Of a stretch of DNA of 37,442 bases, positions 12,694 to 29,473 are shown piece after piece. The first letter of the stretch is position 1; every line of letters begins with the position of its first letter. Source of the stretch: a virus; the IMG/VR virus record IMGVR_UViG_3300031772_000120, positions 1 through 37,442 of that record; one strand, given 5' to 3'. Below the pieces are notes generated by a model that saw nothing but the letters and a program-made list of their open reading frames with translations, ran no database searches and was not told the origin of the DNA. Position numbers and translations under genes: made by a program.

Positions 12694-12749
12694 AGCGCTT
12701 GCAGAGAAAAATTCTTTCTAGCAATGTAAACTTTACAGGAGTTTTTTTT

Positions 12750-14174
12750 ATGGTCAAGAGGATTACAGCATACGGAGTCGGCGGAGCAGTTATCCCACTT
12801 GCGCCACAAGCCGTGAAAAGCAACGGAGTCCCCGACAACTCAAGCGTTAAGTATATCCTCGGCCAGATGGTTCTCAACACGGCTGCGAACGAGTGGCTAA
12901 TCTATAACGGCGAGCAAGACGAGTACACCGTTATCGGAGGGGGAGGGATTGAGACCGTCAATACCATAGCTCCCGACATAGCGCATAACTTCACGATTGC
13001 TGCCGGCGCCGGCATCACGATTACTCCTGGGACGAACGAGATCACGCTTTCCTCTTCCGGCGGTGGTGCCGGTGTAGATACGTTTGTCACCGAACTAAAT
13101 ACTCCTTGCGTGCCCAACGGTTCGGGGGAAATTAACACCACTTCATCTACAAGCACGTTTACGGATGCTGTAGTCCCAAATTCGAACATTCTGAACATTG
13201 AAGTGCAAGCACCCGATCATAATATTTTGGTAGGAAAAGGAGGGAATGTAGTCGTAGGCTCGATCGCACCTAGCGCGGCTTCAGGCATCCCGCTTGTTTC
13301 TAATGGCGTTGCAGCCGATCCTAGCTACTCAACCGCAGAAGTTGTCGGTGGAGGCACGGGACTCGTTTCTACGGCTCCGTACGCAGTCCTAGCGGGTGGC
13401 ACGAGTAGCACGAATCCGTTGCAACAGGTCTCAGGACTCGGAACCTCGGGGCAAGTTCTTACCAGCAACGGAGCTGCCATGTTGCCGACTTGGCAAGCAG
13501 GTGGCGGGGGATCGGGATTCTCCTCAATTGTCACGCAAACCTTTGCAGCGTCAGGCACCTATACGCCAACCGCCGCGATGAAGTATTGCATGATCGAAGT
13601 AGTTGGAGCCGGGGGAGCGGGCGGGGGATCTACCGTTTCGGGAGCTGGGGATACCTGTGTCGGTGGCGGAGGGGGTGGCGGAGGCTATGCTAGGGGGTCA
13701 TTTTCAGCCGCTACTATAGGAGTGTCACAAGTTGTTACAATCGGCGCAGGCGGTATAGGCGCATCTGGTGCTACAGGGGGAACAGGCGGCACAACTTCGG
13801 TTGGAGCTCTTATATCTGCAACAGGAGGAGTTGGTGGAAACGAAGCGGGGCCAGCTACGTTTGCCCTTGCAAGCTCAGGAGCTGGCGGAGCGGGAGCGAG
13901 CGGTGATTTCCAGTGCCAAGGATGCCCGGGATCTTTTGGATTTGGGCTTGTAAGCGCAGGAGCCGGCATATCAATGTCAATCATGGGCGGACAGGGCGGA
14001 TCTTCTTTTTTCGGCGGAGGAGCTGTGTCGATAGTCAACAACGCTGGGGCATTTAATGGCAACGCGGCAACTTCACACGGTGGGGGGGGTGGCGGTTCAA
14101 CCACAGGTTCAGCGGCTGCAGCAACGGGCGGAAACGGTGCAAACGGGTTAGTTGTAGTAACAGAATTTATTTAA
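12750..14174 (+). CDS. Glycine-rich tail fibre / adhesin
   Basis: A 474-residue protein starting MVKRITAYGVGGAVIPLAPQ, with the same ~55-residue N-terminal domain as the fibre at 3789, so both probably occupy the same virion attachment site. The middle is Thr/Ser/Gly-rich. Residues about 275-474 form a glycine-rich adhesin-type domain with long Gly runs and alternating Gly-Ala-Gly motifs, ending TGGNGANGLVVVTEFI, a tail typical of polyglycine-helix adhesins. ATG at 12750 follows ACAGGAG. It is separated from the main spike cluster by ~2.4 kb of regulatory and replication genes. Confidence 0.7.
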   Translation: MVKRITAYGVGGAVIPLAPQAVKSNGVPDNSSVKYILGQMVLNTAANEWLIYNGEQDEYTVIGGGGIETVNTIAPDIAHNFTIAAGAGITITPGTNEITLSSSGGGAGVDTFVTELNTPCVPNGSGEINTTSSTSTFTDAVVPNSNILNIEVQAPDHNILVGKGGNVVVGSIAPSAASGIPLVSNGVAADPSYSTAEVVGGGTGLVSTAPYAVLAGGTSSTNPLQQVSGLGTSGQVLTSNGAAMLPTWQAGGGGSGFSSIVTQTFAASGTYTPTAAMKYCMIEVVGAGGAGGGSTVSGAGDTCVGGGGGGGGYARGSFSAATIGVSQVVTIGAGGIGASGATGGTGGTTSVGALISATGGVGGNEAGPATFALASSGAGGAGASGDFQCQGCPGSFGFGLVSAGAGISMSIMGGQGGSSFFGGGAVSIVNNAGAFNGNAATSHGGGGGGSTTGSAAAATGGNGANGLVVVTEFI

Positions 14175-14189
14175 GGTATTTTGGTCAAT

Positions 14190-14466
14190 CACCCCTCCCT
14201 AAAGGGAGGAGCTTGAAAGGCAACTAACAAGCTCGAAGTTGACCAGCCTCAGCTCTAGGGAAACCTGGAGCTACGTTAGGAGCGAATATATAGGTACCGT
14301 GGGATGCTTCTCCAGTCCCACGCTCTACGGTAAGCGGTTAAACAGGCGTACGGGTTAAACCAGTGCTGCTTACTCACAAACCGCTCCATAACTTTGGCGA
14401 GGAGACCATTACCCGGGAAACCGGAGCGCGGGTAACCGCAAGCGGGGTCGAAAGACCCCATTTTTT
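14190..14466 (+). ncRNA. Unassigned highly structured RNA with intrinsic terminator
   Basis: This ~280-nt non-coding stretch is packed with perfect stems. TGGTCAA (14191-14197) closes with TTGACCA (14239-14245), enclosing CCTCCCT/AGGGAGG and GAGCTTG/CAAGCTC. AGCTCTAGG and CCTGGAGCT form a 9-bp stem with a GAAA loop (14251-14272). GTGGGA/TCCCAC, GTAAGC/GCTTAC and TTACCCG/CGGGTAA follow. The end is GGGGTC-GAAA-GACCCC plus TTTTTT (about 14442-14466). Several GNRA tetraloops suggest tertiary folding. I cannot match it to RNase P, tmRNA or 6S RNA, nor to the capsid-gene introns. It may be a phage packaging-type or regulatory RNA. Confidence 0.6.
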
Positions 14467-21560: not shown

Positions 21561-23636
21561 TTGCGCAACCCGGATCCGATTTTTTTCCCCGGTCAAGACA
21601 CCGAGCTTCAGATCAAGCAGAAGTTCCAAAAGAACTACACTGATTGCATCAACATACTCCAAACTCAATGGTATCAAGCTGACCTCGATCAGCGCTTTAC
21701 CATGGGTGATCAAGATCTATGGGGCTTGATCTTCCCTGGTGTTACGGCTAATCGCAGAAAGCTCTTCAACTTCAACATCACTCAACCGCTTATCTCTACC
21801 GTATCTGGATACCAGCGCCGTAACCGTAAATCGTCTACCGTCATTCCCGTTCTAGACCGTGGCCAAAAGACAGCCGATCAGCTCACTAAGTGCCTCTTTC
21901 ACACTCTCAATAAGTCAGGGATCTATCAGGTCTACTCAGACTGTTTCGAGAAAGGGGCTCTTACTCAAGGTCTAGGCTTTTGTCTCACGTACATAGACAA
22001 GACACAAGACATCATCTCAGGAGACATTCGCAAGCGCTACGTCGACATGAAACAGTGTCTCTTTGATCCTTACTTCCGCAAGCATGACATGTCAGATTGC
22101 CGATTCTGGACGATTCGTACGTTCTTTGATCGGCAAGACGCGGCAGTACTGTATCACAACATCGCCGATGAGATCCTTTCGCTTCCTCAAGGGACCTATC
22201 GAGATGACAAGTTCTACTACATGCCCGAGGTTTACCAGATCCAGTTTCCAAACCTCATAGCTTTCGACGAGTACTACTACCTCACCTCACGAGAAGCAAC
22301 ATATCTTATCGATCGCGAGTCCGAAGAGTGCCAAGAGTGGGAAGGCGACGACGAGCAGATGCGCGACGTGATGCGCAAGCCGTTCCGCAAGGACAACGGC
22401 CAAGGTGGCTTTGACATGGTGGAAGGGCGCAAGCTGTTCCGCGTAGAGAAGCGCGCTAAGCCTACCGTCCGCCGAGCGATCATGATTAACGACAGGTTGC
22501 TACTCGACGAGAAGAACCCGCTAGGTATTGATAAATACCCCGTGGTGCCGTGCTTGGGCTACTTCAACCCGGATACAGCCTACTACTCTTATAAGTTCCG
22601 TGGAATCTCTAGAGACATCCGTGACTCGCAATACCTTTTCAATCGCATGAAGATCAACGATCTTGATCAGGTTGAGGCACAGCAGTCAGGCATTAAAATG
22701 GAGCAAGGGGCTCTAGTTACCCCTGACGACGCTCTAAATTCAGGTAACGGCCGTGTTCTCACCACGCGCCCCGGCTATTTCGACAAGGTTGAGAAACTTC
22801 ACATCGACCCTCCTTCCCCGGTTCTTCTGCAAATGGAAGCAGAGTTGAAGAACATCACCGAGTACATTTCAGGCGTCACAGCCGAGATGATGGGGCAAGA
22901 CATCGACGACAAAGCGGGCATCATCACGATGATTCGTCAGAGCGCATCGATTACAAGGCTCATGCCGCTCTTCGATCAGTTCGACGAGTTCCAGCGTCTA
23001 GACGGAGATCTTACCGTTGAAGTCATACAGAAGAACTACACTTTTGGAAAGATCCGTCAAATCATTGGCGAGGAGCCAACCGAAGAATTCGACAACAAGC
23101 TTTTCTTCCGCTACTCCTGCAAAGTGGCTACCGGCGTTCTTACCGAGTCACAGCAGCAGATGGAAGCGCAGCAGCTATTCTACGCTAAGACTGAGCTGGG
23201 TATCCCTATATCGTCTAAGCGCATCCTCAGTAAGATGGTCTTGCAAGACAAAGACTCTCTCATCAAAGAAGTCGAAGAAGCCGAGAAGCAACAAGCTCAA
23301 ATGGCAGAGAAGAGAGCTCAGCTTGAGATGCAGCAGATGCAAGTAGACAATGAAACGAAGCTTGCTTACGCTCGCGATCAGTCCGCAAAAGCTCAAGCCT
23401 CCATGTCTAAGATCGAGTTAGACAAAGCCATCGGTGTCGAGAAGATCGAAGAAGCTAAGCGCGAGAAGTCCACTTCCTTCCTCAACATGGTCAAAGCTCT
23501 GAAAGAGATACAGTCCATCGACCTCGAGCAAATGGAAAAGGCTCTTGAGCTTATGAACACGATGAAGATTCACACAGCTAACCCGAATGGGTATATAGAA
23601 AAACAACAAATACAACCCCAAGGAGGGGCATTATGA
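21561..23636 (+). CDS. Portal protein, P22-like
   Basis: A 691-residue protein with a TTG start preceded by GAGGAGAG. The N-terminal half has P22-type portal features: QTQWYQADLDQRFTMGDQDLW, NRRKLFNFNITQPLISTVSGYQRRNRK, and a long core with YYSYKFRGISRDIRDSQYLFNRMKINDLDQVEAQQSG and EYISGVTAEMMGQDID. Residues about 570-645 form a long charged coiled coil, which may be the barrel. It makes the dodecameric vertex through which DNA enters and leaves and which carries the short tail. Confidence 0.87.
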   Translation: MRNPDPIFFPGQDTELQIKQKFQKNYTDCINILQTQWYQADLDQRFTMGDQDLWGLIFPGVTANRRKLFNFNITQPLISTVSGYQRRNRKSSTVIPVLDRGQKTADQLTKCLFHTLNKSGIYQVYSDCFEKGALTQGLGFCLTYIDKTQDIISGDIRKRYVDMKQCLFDPYFRKHDMSDCRFWTIRTFFDRQDAAVLYHNIADEILSLPQGTYRDDKFYYMPEVYQIQFPNLIAFDEYYYLTSREATYLIDRESEECQEWEGDDEQMRDVMRKPFRKDNGQGGFDMVEGRKLFRVEKRAKPTVRRAIMINDRLLLDEKNPLGIDKYPVVPCLGYFNPDTAYYSYKFRGISRDIRDSQYLFNRMKINDLDQVEAQQSGIKMEQGALVTPDDALNSGNGRVLTTRPGYFDKVEKLHIDPPSPVLLQMEAELKNITEYISGVTAEMMGQDIDDKAGIITMIRQSASITRLMPLFDQFDEFQRLDGDLTVEVIQKNYTFGKIRQIIGEEPTEEFDNKLFFRYSCKVATGVLTESQQQMEAQQLFYAKTELGIPISSKRILSKMVLQDKDSLIKEVEEAEKQQAQMAEKRAQLEMQQMQVDNETKLAYARDQSAKAQASMSKIELDKAIGVEKIEEAKREKSTSFLNMVKALKEIQSIDLEQMEKALELMNTMKIHTANPNGYIEKQQIQPQGGAL

Positions 23637-26570: not shown

Positions 26571-26810
26571 ATGACCGTTTCAATTAGTTCGCTGCCTCCA
26601 CAAATTCAGCAGCGTTACAATGCGAAGCTTCTCAGCACGCCAGAGCGGAACTTAGTTCACATGCTCTTCGCGTCTCCTGTGGAACTTCCAGATAACCAAG
26701 GGTTCATTGACAGACAGTCTAGATATGATCGTTTAGATCTATTTACGACACCTCTCGATGACTCACAATTGAATCCTCCAAGTCAGCAGTTACATCGTGT
26801 TGATGTGGAT
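26571..26810 (+). CDS. Capsid exon 1 (80 codons)
   Basis: Encodes the capsid N-terminus up to QQLHRVDVD. Without splicing, translation would continue into intron A and stop at the TAA at 26844. The last seven bases (TGTGGAT) are the 5' half of P1 for intron A. Confidence 0.8.
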
Positions 26811-29473
26811 AATTACTACAGTCCACATATTAGTAATGCAGCGTAATTGTGTAGGGTACGCGTATATGCAACTTATATCGTTTTAACGAGACAAGTTACA
26901 ATTACTAACGAGGATAGAATTGTGTCCTCGATAAATCTTCTCTGATAATCTTGGAACCCTGACCGCATTGTGGCGCAGGCAACAAGGTGCAAGCAACTGA
27001 AAGGTGTGCAGCATGACAGCAGTAAGCGAGAAGACTCCGAAAGGAGATGCGGTACTCGGAACACCGTGGAAACACAGTGAGGGAAGTGCAATAGGCTTCC
27101 TCGCCATGGACCGAAAATAGGAAATATTTTAATCATTTCGGTCCGTGGACCGAAAATAGGAAATATTTTAATCATTTCGGGCCACGGTCAAAAAAGTAAC
27201 AGGATGCCAGTTCTCAATAGCGCAGCAGCTCGTCTAGGACAAGCTTTGCGCGAAACACAAGACGCCTTGGTTCGAGACAATCTCGAGTCAACAGCTTCTG
27301 TAATTAACTGCGTAAACGGAACAAACGGAGATCTCCCAACAGAGATGGCCATCGAAGACGTAGATGACATCGTAACCGTGTTGCAAAACAACTCGGGCGA
27401 GTACATCACTTCGATTGTTGAAGCAGACCTGAAGTTCGGAACGAGCCCAGTGGGCGATAGCTACGGTTGTATGTTAACAACCCGAATGATCCCCGTGCTT
27501 AACGGCATTACGGGATTCGTGCGGAAGTTCCAATACCCTAACATCAGCCAGACTCTGTCTACTGAATGGGGTGGCGTGAACAACGTGCGTTACTTCGTGT
27601 CTGAGCAGGGTTCTATTACGCCGAATGCAAGCTTACTTGGTAATGACGTGGCTAACTGCTTCGTTGCTGCTAAAGAGGCTTACAAAGTGGTTAAAATGTC
27701 AGACCACTCTAAATCTTCTCTGATTGAGGTGGAAGCCTACGATTATGCGCTAGTCGCGTAATTATGGTGACACTGCGGAAGATGTTTTGATAATATCGTT
27801 TGGCAAACACGTAATGTGAGGCCAAATGAGAGTATGTAGAAGATGTAAAGAAGAAAAAAATGATGAACAATTTGGAAAGCTTAAATGTAGTAAGGACGGC
27901 ATCAATCCAAGATGCCGCAAGTGCTGTATTGATAGCGTCAAGAGATCTAAAAAATCCCCTGAGGCTATTGCTAATAAGGCTAAGTACGTTTCCGAATGGC
28001 AAAGACAGAATAGAGAAAAAAGGCTTAAACAAAGCCGTGATTGGTATGAGAGAAATCTTGAAAAGGCTAGAGACATGTCTCTTGAAGCCACTAAAAAATA
28101 TCTCAGTACTAGACATGGCAAGAACAAAAGAAACCAAAGATCTTCTGATTGGGATAAAAGAAATCCTGAAAAAAGAAAAGCTCATGACAGGGCAATGTAT
28201 GCGGTCGAAACAGGGAAACTTATTCGTCCTTCTTCATGCTCTAAGTGCCAAAAGGAATGTAAACCTCATGCACATCATGAGGATTATTCCAAAGCTCTTG
28301 AAGTCGTTTGGTTGTGTGCTGTCTGTCATTTTTACCTACATCATGAATCAAAACATCACCGTAAGAGAGCAAGCGAGAAGACTCCGAAAGGAGATGCGGT
28401 GCGCCAAACCACTGACGAAAGCAGTGGAGATATCCAGAAATGAGATATCCGCCATATTAAAATATGGTCAACAAGTAATAGATAGTTTGTGGCAAAGTGG
28501 TGGTAAGGCACGTTTTATTTACATGCCTCCAGGGTTAAGTTTGGCTCTGGATAAATCTCTTTTAATTGACTTGGACACCTACAACTATGCTCAAGCAGCT
28601 TAGTCATGGCAACAAGGGGTAAGCAGTGAGCTTGATGCAAATACATGGGTCATTTATACTACCTGTAAACCTATGGAGGTTAGCTATGGTAGAAGAAAGT
28701 AAATCATGTACTAAGTGTCTTGTAAACAAACGACCCGATGAATTTAGGAAAGACCCGAAATATAAGTGCGGTTTGTCCGCTCAGTGCATTGAATGCTGTA
28801 GACAAAAAGAAAGAGAATATGAAGCGAGAAATAAAGAATCTCGTGTTCAAAGGCATCGTGAATGGAGAGATGAAAACAGAGACTCTATCAACGAAAGAAA
28901 TAGAGATCGATGGAATTCTGATCCTGAATGGAAGGCAAGAAAAGACAAGTACAAAGGTATGTACAAGGAATGGAGAGCCAAATATGCCAGTAACTACAAA
29001 AAGTCTAATAGAGATAAATGCAATGCTAGGACTCAACTTCAATATTGGGTTAATAAAGGCGAAGTAAAAAGACCTGACAAGTGCGAGATGTGTGAATCAT
29101 CAGAATATAGGATTGAAGCGCATCATTTCGATTATAGCAAACCGCTTGAAGTTCAGTGGTTTTGTCAGAAGTGCCACCTAAGATTACATCGGTTGTTTAA
29201 AAAAACTCATGTGCAACCTGATCGACTAACCAAAGAGAACTCCGAGGAGGAGTAAGTGATAGTCAAGACTCATAACGAAAGTATGAGAGGAGCATCCGAA
29301 GCGGTGCTCCCGCCATTGGTGATTATGGTCAGTAAGCTTTGGATGGCTGAAAGTAATAGAATGATAACAATGATCCATGCATGCTCCGGCACACTGCCGG
29401 CTGTAGTACATACCAGGGTCAGTGTATCACTCAGGACCTCTGGTTACAAAACCTACGATCAACCGGAATTTAA
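26571..29473 (+). CDS. Major capsid protein, N4-gp56-like, split into five exons
   Basis: Joining 26571-26810, 26850-26915, 27207-27692, 28490-28535 and 29364-29473 gives 948 nt and a 315-residue protein. Family features recur in order: NLVHMLFASPVELP, YATYIVLTRQVTITNED|PVLNSAAARLGQALRETQDALVRD, NCVNGTNGDLPTE, EWGGVNNVRYFVS, AKEAYKVV|WQSGGKARFIYMPPG and CITQDLWLQNLRSTGI. Each junction restores the frame and the spacing I expect from N4-gp56-type coats. Conventional gene calling would see truncated ORFs (26571-26846 and 27204-27761). The stop is followed by AAGGAGG for the next gene. Family assignment is from memory of these coats. Confidence 0.82.
26811..26849 (+). other. Intron A: 39-nt core-less group I-like mini-intron
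   Basis: Exon TGTGGAT (26804-26810) pairs over 7 bp with GTCCACA (26821-26827), with U opposite G at the splice site (P1). CTACA (26816-26820), directly before that guide, pairs over 5 bp with TGTAG, the first five bases of exon 2 (P10). The intron ends in G. Removing it deletes an in-frame TAA and joins VDVD to CRVRVYATY at the expected spacing. After the guide come only 22 nt, ending in AGTAATGCAGCGTAATTG, which recalls the 3' ends of the full introns. There is no room for P3-P8, so excision would need a catalytic core in trans, perhaps intron B's. Confidence 0.6.
26850..26915 (+). CDS. Capsid exon 2 (22 codons)
   Basis: Encodes CRVRVYATYIVLTRQVTITNED, a segment matching the conserved beta-strand region that precedes DPVL in N4-gp56-type coats. 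It has no start codon of its own. It is flanked by intron A (39 nt) and intron B. Its last seven bases (CGAGGAT) form P1 of intron B. Confidence 0.75.
26916..27206 (+). ncRNA. Intron B: 291-nt ORF-less group I-like intron
   Basis: P1: CGAGGAT (26909-26915) with GTCCTCG (26924-26930), 7 bp with a U-G at the splice site. P10: AATTG (26918-26922) with CAGTT (27208-27212). The intron ends in G and joins NED to PVLNSA. The guide is followed by ATAAATCTTCTCTGAT, shared with intron C. A 30-nt block at 27024-27053 is identical to 28371-28400 in intron C. It also has a GAAA-capped stem (CACCGTG/CACAGTG) and a terminal CGCCA...GGTCA element like those of C and D. Group I assignment rests on P1, P10 and the terminal G; the subclass is not assigned. 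Confidence 0.78.
27104..27181 (+). repeat. Tandem pair of 39-bp hairpin repeats inside intron B
   Basis: Units 27104-27142 and 27143-27181 differ at two positions. Each folds into a stem of about 12-13 bp around an AT-rich loop (GGACCGAAA ... TTTCGGTCC). The arms CCATGG, CCGTGG and CCACGG at the unit boundaries let the middle one pair with either neighbour. They extend the hairpin that is only a few base pairs long in introns C and D. Confidence 0.85.
27207..27692 (+). CDS. Capsid exon 3 (162 codons)
   Basis: The largest exon, PVLNSAAARLGQALRETQDALVRD ... to AKEAYKVV. An ATG at 27204, just before the splice junction, makes it look like an independent gene, but those three bases are the end of intron B. 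The last seven bases (AGTGGTT) form P1 of intron C. Confidence 0.82.
27693..28489 (+). ncRNA. Intron C: 797-nt group I-like intron with HNH gene
   Basis: P1: AGTGGTT (27686-27692) with GACCACT (27702-27708), 7 bp with a U-G at the splice site. P10: TGTCA (27697-27701) with TGGCA (28490-28494). The intron ends in G and joins AKEAYKVV to WQSGGKARFIY. It shares the post-guide segment with intron B and a 30-nt core block (28371-28400). It has a CCACTG/CAGTGG stem and a terminal GCCATA/TATGGT hairpin followed by GGTCA. It carries the HNH ORF 27826-28443, whose 3' end reads through the core block. Homing by the endonuclease would explain its spread. Confidence 0.82.
27826..28443 (+). CDS. Intron-encoded HNH homing endonuclease 1
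   Basis: A 205-residue protein. Residues 4-33 form a Cys knuckle pair (CRRC ... CRKC), residues 40-130 a basic, helical DNA-binding region with repeats of W-RN-EK, and residues 138-173 the HNH/treble-clef nuclease (CSKCQKECKPHAHHEDYSKA then WLCAVCHFYLHH). Histidines 150/151 and the CxxC pairs are the expected metal-site residues. The last ~30 codons lie in the intron core, so that tail is probably dispensable. It would cut intron-less capsid genes. Paralogue of the ORF in intron D. Confidence 0.82.
   Translation: MRVCRRCKEEKNDEQFGKLKCSKDGINPRCRKCCIDSVKRSKKSPEAIANKAKYVSEWQRQNREKRLKQSRDWYERNLEKARDMSLEATKKYLSTRHGKNKRNQRSSDWDKRNPEKRKAHDRAMYAVETGKLIRPSSCSKCQKECKPHAHHEDYSKALEVVWLCAVCHFYLHHESKHHRKRASEKTPKGDAVRQTTDESSGDIQK
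28490..28535 (+). CDS. Capsid exon 4 (15 codons plus 1 nt)
   Basis: Encodes WQSGGKARFIYMPPG, matching the conserved FIYRPP motif near the C-terminus of this coat family. Splits a codon with exon 5 (phase 1). Its last seven bases (CCAGGGT) form P1 of intron D. Confidence 0.75.
28536..29363 (+). ncRNA. Intron D: 828-nt group I-like intron with HNH gene
   Basis: P1: CCAGGGT (28529-28535) with GCTCTGG (28544-28550), 7 bp with a U-G at the splice site. The guide is followed by ATAAATCTC, aligning with introns B and C; similarity to C continues for about 57 nt (about 70% identical by eye). Near the 3' end it shares AAGACTC, CCGCCAT and TATGGTCA with C. The 3' splice site after G29363 is placed by alignment of AAGTAATAGAATG with AAGTAACAGGATG in B; P10 is weak, so the 3' site is less certain. 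It carries the second HNH gene. Confidence 0.72.
28686..29255 (+). CDS. Intron-encoded HNH homing endonuclease 2
   Basis: A 189-residue protein from the ATG at 28686, with GGAGG 6 nt upstream (a GTG at 28626 extends it). Same layout as the first: N-terminal knuckles (CTKC ... CIECC), basic helices (REWRDENRDSINERNRDRW), then HNH CEMCESSEYRIEAHHFDYSKP and WFCQKCHLRLHR (about residues 132-170). It is clearly paralogous to the ORF in intron C but diverged, so the two introns probably arose by old duplication or separate entry of related elements. Confidence 0.82.
   Translation: MVEESKSCTKCLVNKRPDEFRKDPKYKCGLSAQCIECCRQKEREYEARNKESRVQRHREWRDENRDSINERNRDRWNSDPEWKARKDKYKGMYKEWRAKYASNYKKSNRDKCNARTQLQYWVNKGEVKRPDKCEMCESSEYRIEAHHFDYSKPLEVQWFCQKCHLRLHRLFKKTHVQPDRLTKENSEEE
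29364..29473 (+). CDS. Capsid exon 5 (last 36 codons)
   Basis: With one base from exon 4 it reads YNNDPCMLRHTAGCSTYQGQCITQDLWLQNLRSTGI and TAA. The ITxDLWxxNLR ending is the conserved C-terminus of the family. It lies in a frame different from the longer ORF at 29256-29501, which therefore is not a gene. Confidence 0.72.

Follow-up and report, generated by a model that had tools for sequence, protein, structure and literature searches.

A major capsid gene interrupted by four introns

The window analysed here covers positions 1 to 37,442 of IMG/VR virus record IMGVR_UViG_3300031772_000120, 37,442 nucleotides (nt) of viral DNA, and our subject is its major capsid protein (MCP) gene at 26571-29473, with the four inserts that interrupt it. 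All elements of the gene described below lie on the plus strand. Exon 1 (26571-26810) holds codons 1-80, exon 2 (26850-26915, 66 nt) codons 81-102, and exon 3 (27207-27692) codons 103-264; exon 4 (28490-28535) is 46 nt long, and exon 5 (29364-29473) supplies the C-terminus and the stop codon. The introns between them occupy 26811-26849 (39 nt), 26916-27206 (291 nt), 27693-28489 (797 nt), and 28536-29363 (828 nt). These boundaries were obtained by spliced dynamic-programming alignment against the uninterrupted homologue at locus L006 (L numbers are our handles for loci), in which a T at the exon end and a G at the intron end were the sole rules. To the base, the alignment reproduced the four introns and five exons, including the 66-nt and 46-nt exons, that an earlier note had proposed from the sequence alone.

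The joined exons comprise 948 nt, encoding 315 codons and a stop without any internal stop codon. The predicted protein aligns without gaps to the uninterrupted MCP genes of relatives, with 90% identity to L006 over residues 1-315. It matches the N4-gp56 family major capsid protein model TIGR04387 (7e-30; 104.4 bits against a cut-off of 60; residues 6-307), which also supports exons 1 and 3, and the major head protein family phrog_1357 (7e-20). The homology check thus came out in favour of the N4-gp56-like coat that the earlier note had read from the joined exons. Its exon-guide helices were likewise found at all four introns: each has 7-8 bp, is closed by a U.G pair, and has its intron strand 8-10 nt from the splice site. 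Chance is excluded as the origin of the introns, since dozens of independent metagenome contigs share both their sites and their pairings. No further intron of the capsid-gene type was found in the window, no second capsid gene on its record, and no close relative among named phages.

Introns across the capsid gene family

Relatives of the capsid gene were collected from 80 IMG/VR loci, and the analysis of about 120 loci revealed 15 insertion sites in all three phases, following codons 80, 83, 89, 96, 102, 103, 133, 139, 219, 264, 280, 286, 295, 298, and 301. Among 100 complete genes, a count that includes near-copies, 58 have no intron, 16 have one, 11 have two, 4 have three, 10 have four, and 1 (L002) has five. 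Four introns in one gene, which the earlier note had called exceptional, are therefore not so within this family. The shortest internal exons are 19 nt (L027 and L243; also L255 and L256, from the sequence). All the evidence presented comes from sequence comparison. Intron counts given here are of distinct sequences and not of fully independent events, for which tree contrasts and separate insertion sites compensate in part. The five-intron gene of L002 (3350-6456) includes a short intron of the intron 1 kind (a mini-intron) and, behind an exon of 25 nt, another small intron. A 26-nt "intron" of L234 was dropped as a frameshift artefact. Skipping of exon 2 would be possible in frame, but its 22 residues are kept by relatives. 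Public metagenomes probably list dozens of this family's capsid genes as fragments.

Introns 2 to 4: predicted group I introns

Introns 2, 3, and 4 are group I introns by their predicted architecture. Intron 2 (26916-27206), at the codon-102 site, has no open reading frame (ORF); its P1 pairs 26909-26915 with 26924-26930. In intron 3 (27693-28489), at the codon-264 site, P1 pairs 27686-27692 with 27702-27708, and both introns have the P3 helix UCUUCUC/GAGAAGA, read by eye in intron 3. In intron 4 (28536-29363), at the codon-280 site, P1 pairs 28529-28535 with 28544-28550, P3 pairs 28556-28562 with 29232-29238, and P7 pairs 29224-29228 with 29260-29264; this intron fits the core fully. Introns 3 and 4 each contain an ORF matching the phrog_2340 endonuclease family, of 205 aa at 27826-28443 (E 3e-31) and of 209 aa from the first GTG at 28626-29255 (E 1e-27); the 3' end of the former overlaps the ribozyme core.

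The same features recur across the family. In all 80 distinct introns P1 has U.G at the 5' splice site, and it mostly consists of 7-8 pairs. The T before each intron and the G at its end were requirements of the alignment; no such requirement applied to the helix. In P10 the guide sequence pairs with the 3' exon, and full introns score 4.30 for it versus 2.29 for shuffled 3' exons (0/2000). Sixteen ORF-less introns of 202-291 nt share the layout P1, UAAAY, P3, GAUUGACUUGGAA, P4-P6, P7, P3', P8, P7'. The crossing P3 and P7 helices are the signature of a group I core. In 32 distinct P3/P7 combinations, extracted at fixed offsets because a pairing-optimising automatic search is unreliable for ORF-bearing introns, 97.4% of cells are paired, with 95 double changes distributed over 10 of the 12 pairs. 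None of 500 shuffles reached this level, and a slid register gave 40-47%. From these features introns 2-4 would be expected to splice themselves.

Many introns at codon 102 carry long ORFs, some of them LAGLIDADG-like; in five (L021, L058, L076, L079, and L239) LAGLIDADG-like endonuclease ORFs run antisense. HNH-like endonuclease ORFs at other sites run sense to the capsid gene. Intron 2 of the window contains at 27108-27185 two copies, 39 nt apart, of GGACCGAAAATAGGAAATATTTTAATCATTTCGG, an imperfect hairpin; its near-identical counterpart in L002 has a single copy.

A 39-nt mini-intron without a catalytic core

Intron 1 (26811-26849) is supported by the spliced alignment, by P1 and P10, and by its equivalents in relatives. 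Its P1 pairs exon positions 26803-26810 (AUGUGGAU) with 26821-26828 (GUCCACAU), its P10 pairs 26816-26820 (CUACA) with 26850-26854 of exon 2 (UGUAG), and it ends in UUG. It thus has P1, P10, and the terminal G, and lacks a P3-P8 core of its own. The earlier note had treated the four introns as equivalents; introns 2-4 do have the group I layout, and intron 1 at 39 nt stands apart. Since there is no room for P3-P8, we class it not as a group I intron but only as the likely substrate of one.

Mini-introns follow codon 80 in about 20 relatives and are 38, 39, 41, 42, 47, 48, or 59 nt long (16 distinct sequences and two found later). Every one pairs with the last bases of exon 1 as a P1 hairpin and with the first bases of exon 2 as P10, and the two pairings covary: in P1, exon GUCGAU faces guide GUCGAC in L023, L032, and L239, and CGUGGAU faces GUCCACG in L243 and L258; in P10, UGUAG/CUACA in the window is replaced by UGCCG/CGGCA in others. 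The P10 score is 4.62 versus 2.40 for shuffled 3' exons (0/2000). The 3' end is UUG or AUG in 15 of 16, as in most full introns. Lengths are 0 or 2 mod 3, and in every case read-through soon meets an in-frame stop. No other intact MCP copy was found in mini-intron carriers on the records tested, so the insert must be removed, and the conserved P1 and P10 pairings indicate group I chemistry with a borrowed core.

A P1 pattern scan of viral contigs yielded one true new mini-intron, in L197, among the matches listed, the rest being mostly chance hairpins; L083 was rejected as such a hairpin. In the mini-introns of L091, L097, and L239 the 3' half resembles the P5 hairpin of window introns 3 and 4 (GAUUAUGCG...CGCGUAAUU), as if they had arisen by internal deletion of a full intron.

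The mini-intron accompanies the codon-102 intron

Exon 2 places the codon-102 intron just 66 nt of coding sequence downstream of the mini-intron. All 18 distinct mini-intron carriers in the tree also have the codon-102 intron; of the other rows, 78 lack both and 3 have just the codon-102 intron (Fisher 5e-17). In a tree built from exon 3, 10.7 of 11 independent contrasts show joint change of the two (p 0.001). No significant association with the mini-intron was seen for introns located further along the gene (p 0.125), and four carriers (L063, L076, L079, and L208) have no intron in the gene besides the mini-intron and the one at codon 102. Most likely, the ribozyme of intron 2 removes intron 1, as this pattern of shared gain and loss suggests.

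SsrA-like tails in the intron reading frames

A ribosome reading from the upstream exon into an unspliced intron would add a short tail, a feature overlooked in the earlier note. In intron 1 the read-through (26811-26846) gives NYYSPHISNAA before a TAA at 26844-26846. SsrA-like tails are found in intron 3 (KMSDHSKSSLIEVEAYDYALVA; 27693-27761, stop TAA 27759-27761) and in intron 4 (LSLALDKSLLIDLDTYNYAQAA; 28536-28603, stop TAG 28601-28603). Across the family, 46 distinct full introns are not immediately preceded by a mini-intron, and in 41 of them read-through from the upstream exon leads to Ala-Ala-stop; among the other five, two end in LVA and one in MVA. The same ending occurs in 15 of 16 mini-introns. 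The corresponding values were 0/160 for the two other frames and 0.19% for introns after shuffling. Tails such as KSSLIDLEAYDYALAA, DLEALAA, and DNYAIAA are typical, and those of the window end in SNAA, YDYALVA, and YNYAQAA.

The coding of the tails varies. All four alanine codons and all three stop codons are used. At every site with a tail of the KSSLIDLE type, whatever its phase, the intron frame is shifted to fit the exon phase. At lengths of 38 or 41 nt, most mini-introns are read past their 3' end, out of frame, as far as a GCC GCG TAA in exon 2, and in L071 the tail is located in the P1 loop. The codon-286 intron of L032 (204 nt) has no stop in the exon frame and is readable into the next exon, unlike its relatives.

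Full introns directly after a mini-intron are tagged in 0 of 18 cases (one at codon 89, L002) and drift in frame; those of L253 and L258 are also untagged. Intron 2 of the window fits this state, its read-through being RIVSSINLL and a stop; the window introns downstream of it retain tags. Codon-102 introns without a mini-intron are tagged in five of five loci (L021, L058, L227, L255, and L256), two of which have a full intron before them. In L073, a mini-intron carrier, the relative of the L021 intron has TGAACATAA in place of GCAGCATAA. The simplest reading of the untagged state would be that ribosomes never reach the codon-102 intron while the mini-intron is present. If so, the mini-intron leaves together with or after that intron. 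The tag pattern suggests this order, which would be expected if the ribozyme of the codon-102 intron does the removal.

Comparable tails occur in two mycobacteriophage introns. The LittleE capsid intron (within L249, JF937101 8000-10800) reads through to ...NSVATAAA-stop and the Baka tail gene intron (within L251, JF937090 27300-29200) to ...SDDLAAAAA-stop, in both cases with a high-GC codon use that raises the likelihood of alanine. The Tuc2009 capsid intron has no such tail.

Proposed mechanism and alternative explanations

We propose that four RNA inserts, all of them removable, interrupt the N4-gp56 family capsid gene of this phage. Of these, introns 2, 3, and 4 would self-splice as group I introns, the latter two carrying putative homing-endonuclease ORFs. 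Intron 1 would keep only what is needed for recognition of the splice sites, namely the P1 hairpin and its U.G pair, the sequence that pairs with the 3' exon in P10, and the final G. Its catalytic core would most likely come from intron 2, probably in step with or after the excision of intron 2, making the latter resemble a natural group I "spliceozyme". A ribosome entering an unspliced intron would produce a truncated coat protein marked for ClpXP-type proteolysis, and destruction of that protein would avoid a fragment that could poison capsid assembly. Taken together, group I introns 2-4, a mini-intron with a borrowed core, and intron-encoded degron tags form an explanation that we regard as probable. 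For the more specific proposal, a natural core-less intron of 38-59 nt removed by its neighbour's ribozyme, with SsrA-like degrons as quality control of unspliced mRNA, we hold a somewhat more reserved but still favourable opinion.

Several observations weigh against this explanation. A relaxed search with the Rfam group I model that included the region gave no match to these introns, and the group I structure was therefore worked out by hand; that model does not define the class, whose hallmarks (P1, P10, a terminal G, and crossing P3/P7 helices with P8) are all present. By eye, P7 has four of five pairs in window intron 3 and is bulged in intron 2. The tail is absent from the mini-intron of L197 and from a few introns (L013, and L032 at codon 286). 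To our knowledge, no natural core-less group I intron serves as a precedent. Finally, the linkage of the mini-intron to the codon-102 intron could stem in part from co-conversion of the flanking exon during homing. Co-conversion explains neither the absence of mini-introns without a codon-102 intron nor the tag pattern.

Carried further, this last point becomes an alternative in which intron 1 is spliced by another agent, either a core elsewhere in the transcript or a protein that cuts and ligates, and its tie to intron 2 reflects co-conversion only. Homing with co-conversion of the flanks does predict that two introns 66 nt apart are gained and lost together, and the long, partly LAGLIDADG-like ORFs at codon 102 agree with it. 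Loss of intron 2 alone should then sometimes leave a mini-intron behind, which is seen in 0 of 18. Moreover, the gene offers no further intron in the four carriers named above, the P1 and P10 pairings are characteristic of group I, and the tag of intron 2 is lost only after a mini-intron and not after a full intron (L255 and L256). We consider such another agent unlikely. The 39 nt might instead stay in the message and be passed by ribosome hopping or a frameshift. A short insert with a hairpin and a stop within a coding region recalls the bypassing of T4 gene 60, whose gap is of similar length. Hopping that resumes at codon 81 would need a landing triplet matching the GAU take-off codon, and the mini-introns end in UUG, AUG, or AGG in 16 of 16; it would also leave the P10 pairing to exon 2 unexplained, and the lengths of 0 or 2 mod 3 count against it as well. 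This makes an unspliced insert very improbable.

The tails could also be a by-product of conserved RNA structure, an extended P5 region, and not selected peptides, as in many full introns they lie within the conserved P3-P4-P5 stretch. Against this, the frame fits the exon at all sites with tails of the KSSLIDLE type, whether the phase is 0, 1, or 2, and drifts only after a mini-intron, and the alanine and stop codons vary at silent positions. Mini-introns without P5 still reach Ala-Ala-stop, some of them by continuing out of frame into exon 2; the tail of L071 lies in the P1 loop instead; and two unrelated mycobacteriophage introns also end in AAA-stop. A structural by-product is accordingly quite improbable in our estimation. 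Least credible of all, to the point of being negligible, is a decaying pseudogene or an assembly artefact, for which the stops and frame breaks inside the gene might be taken; identical sites occur in many independent metagenomes, the joined exons are stop-free and match intact genes without gaps, and the gene is the sole MCP on the records tested.

Other features of the window

A P22-like portal (PF16510, 3e-51; 21561-23636) is paired in the window with the N4-type MCP (26571-29473). A full-length HEARO RNA (Rfam RF02033, 141.8 bits) lies at 14184-14412 on the plus strand. Directly upstream, the ORF at 12699-14174 is rich in glycine and by Pfam does not resemble IscB, so this RNA may be an orphan copy.

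Significance and comparison with known systems

If the explanation is correct, introns dependent on the ribozyme of another intron arose naturally in phages. Loss of the core with service in trans, a long-debated step of intron evolution, could be tested with a short transcript, in E. coli and in vitro, and would be a group I parallel to the proposed route from self-splicing group II introns to spliceosomal introns. The tags would account both for the tolerance of introns in the phage gene that is translated most heavily, even with transcription and translation coupled, and for where the in-frame stops of such introns are positioned. Introns of other phages may also be easier to find by an in-frame Ala-Ala tail, to which those of Baka and LittleE already conform. 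Our literature search, which lacked most subscription journals, turned up no account of either degron-tagged group I introns or natural core-less ones.

The gene orf142 of Staphylococcus phage Twort is reported to be split by three group I introns, with one exon of 23 nt (Landthaler & Shub 1999, as cited in PMC10136302); two of the introns belong to subgroup IA2, and exon skipping between adjacent introns is documented. Three is the highest published number that we found for one phage gene. The capsid gene resembles orf142 in having several group I introns in one phage gene with tiny exons between them, and differs in having four to five per gene, 15 sites in 948 nt, and one insert that is core-less, where all three of orf142 are reported as group I. 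In mycobacteriophages, RT-PCR supports splicing of the introns in the LittleE capsid gene and the Baka tail gene (PMC3706429). These too are group I-like introns in late structural genes, with the read-through tails ...TAAA-stop and ...DLAAAAA-stop noticed here, but there is one per gene. Engineered group I spliceozymes, or trans-excision-splicing ribozymes, have a core that recognises two splice sites on another RNA and cuts out an insert lacking a core (PMC4094466). In the same way a group I core would remove the core-less insert here; the engineered spliceozyme is man-made and brings its own guide sequence, whereas the mini-intron has its own guide sequence and P10.

For the tails, the parallels lie elsewhere. 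In yeast HAC1, a degron at the 5' end of the intron has been proposed to silence the protein made from unspliced mRNA (PMC8002603). The position of the degron and its direction against the product of an unspliced message are alike; HAC1 is eukaryotic, is spliced by IRE1 and a ligase, and concerns one gene, a regulatory role, and an unrelated sequence. In-frame stops at the start of phage group I introns have been discussed as helping intron folding and splicing (PMC3984707), an account that, in its available part, describes no tag. SsrA tags commonly end in LAA, with LVA as a used variant (PMC9382460). The intron tails, ending in ALAA, LLAA, YALVA, QAA, and similar, are like them in sequence, and differ from the tmRNA tag in being encoded in cis and not added by tmRNA.

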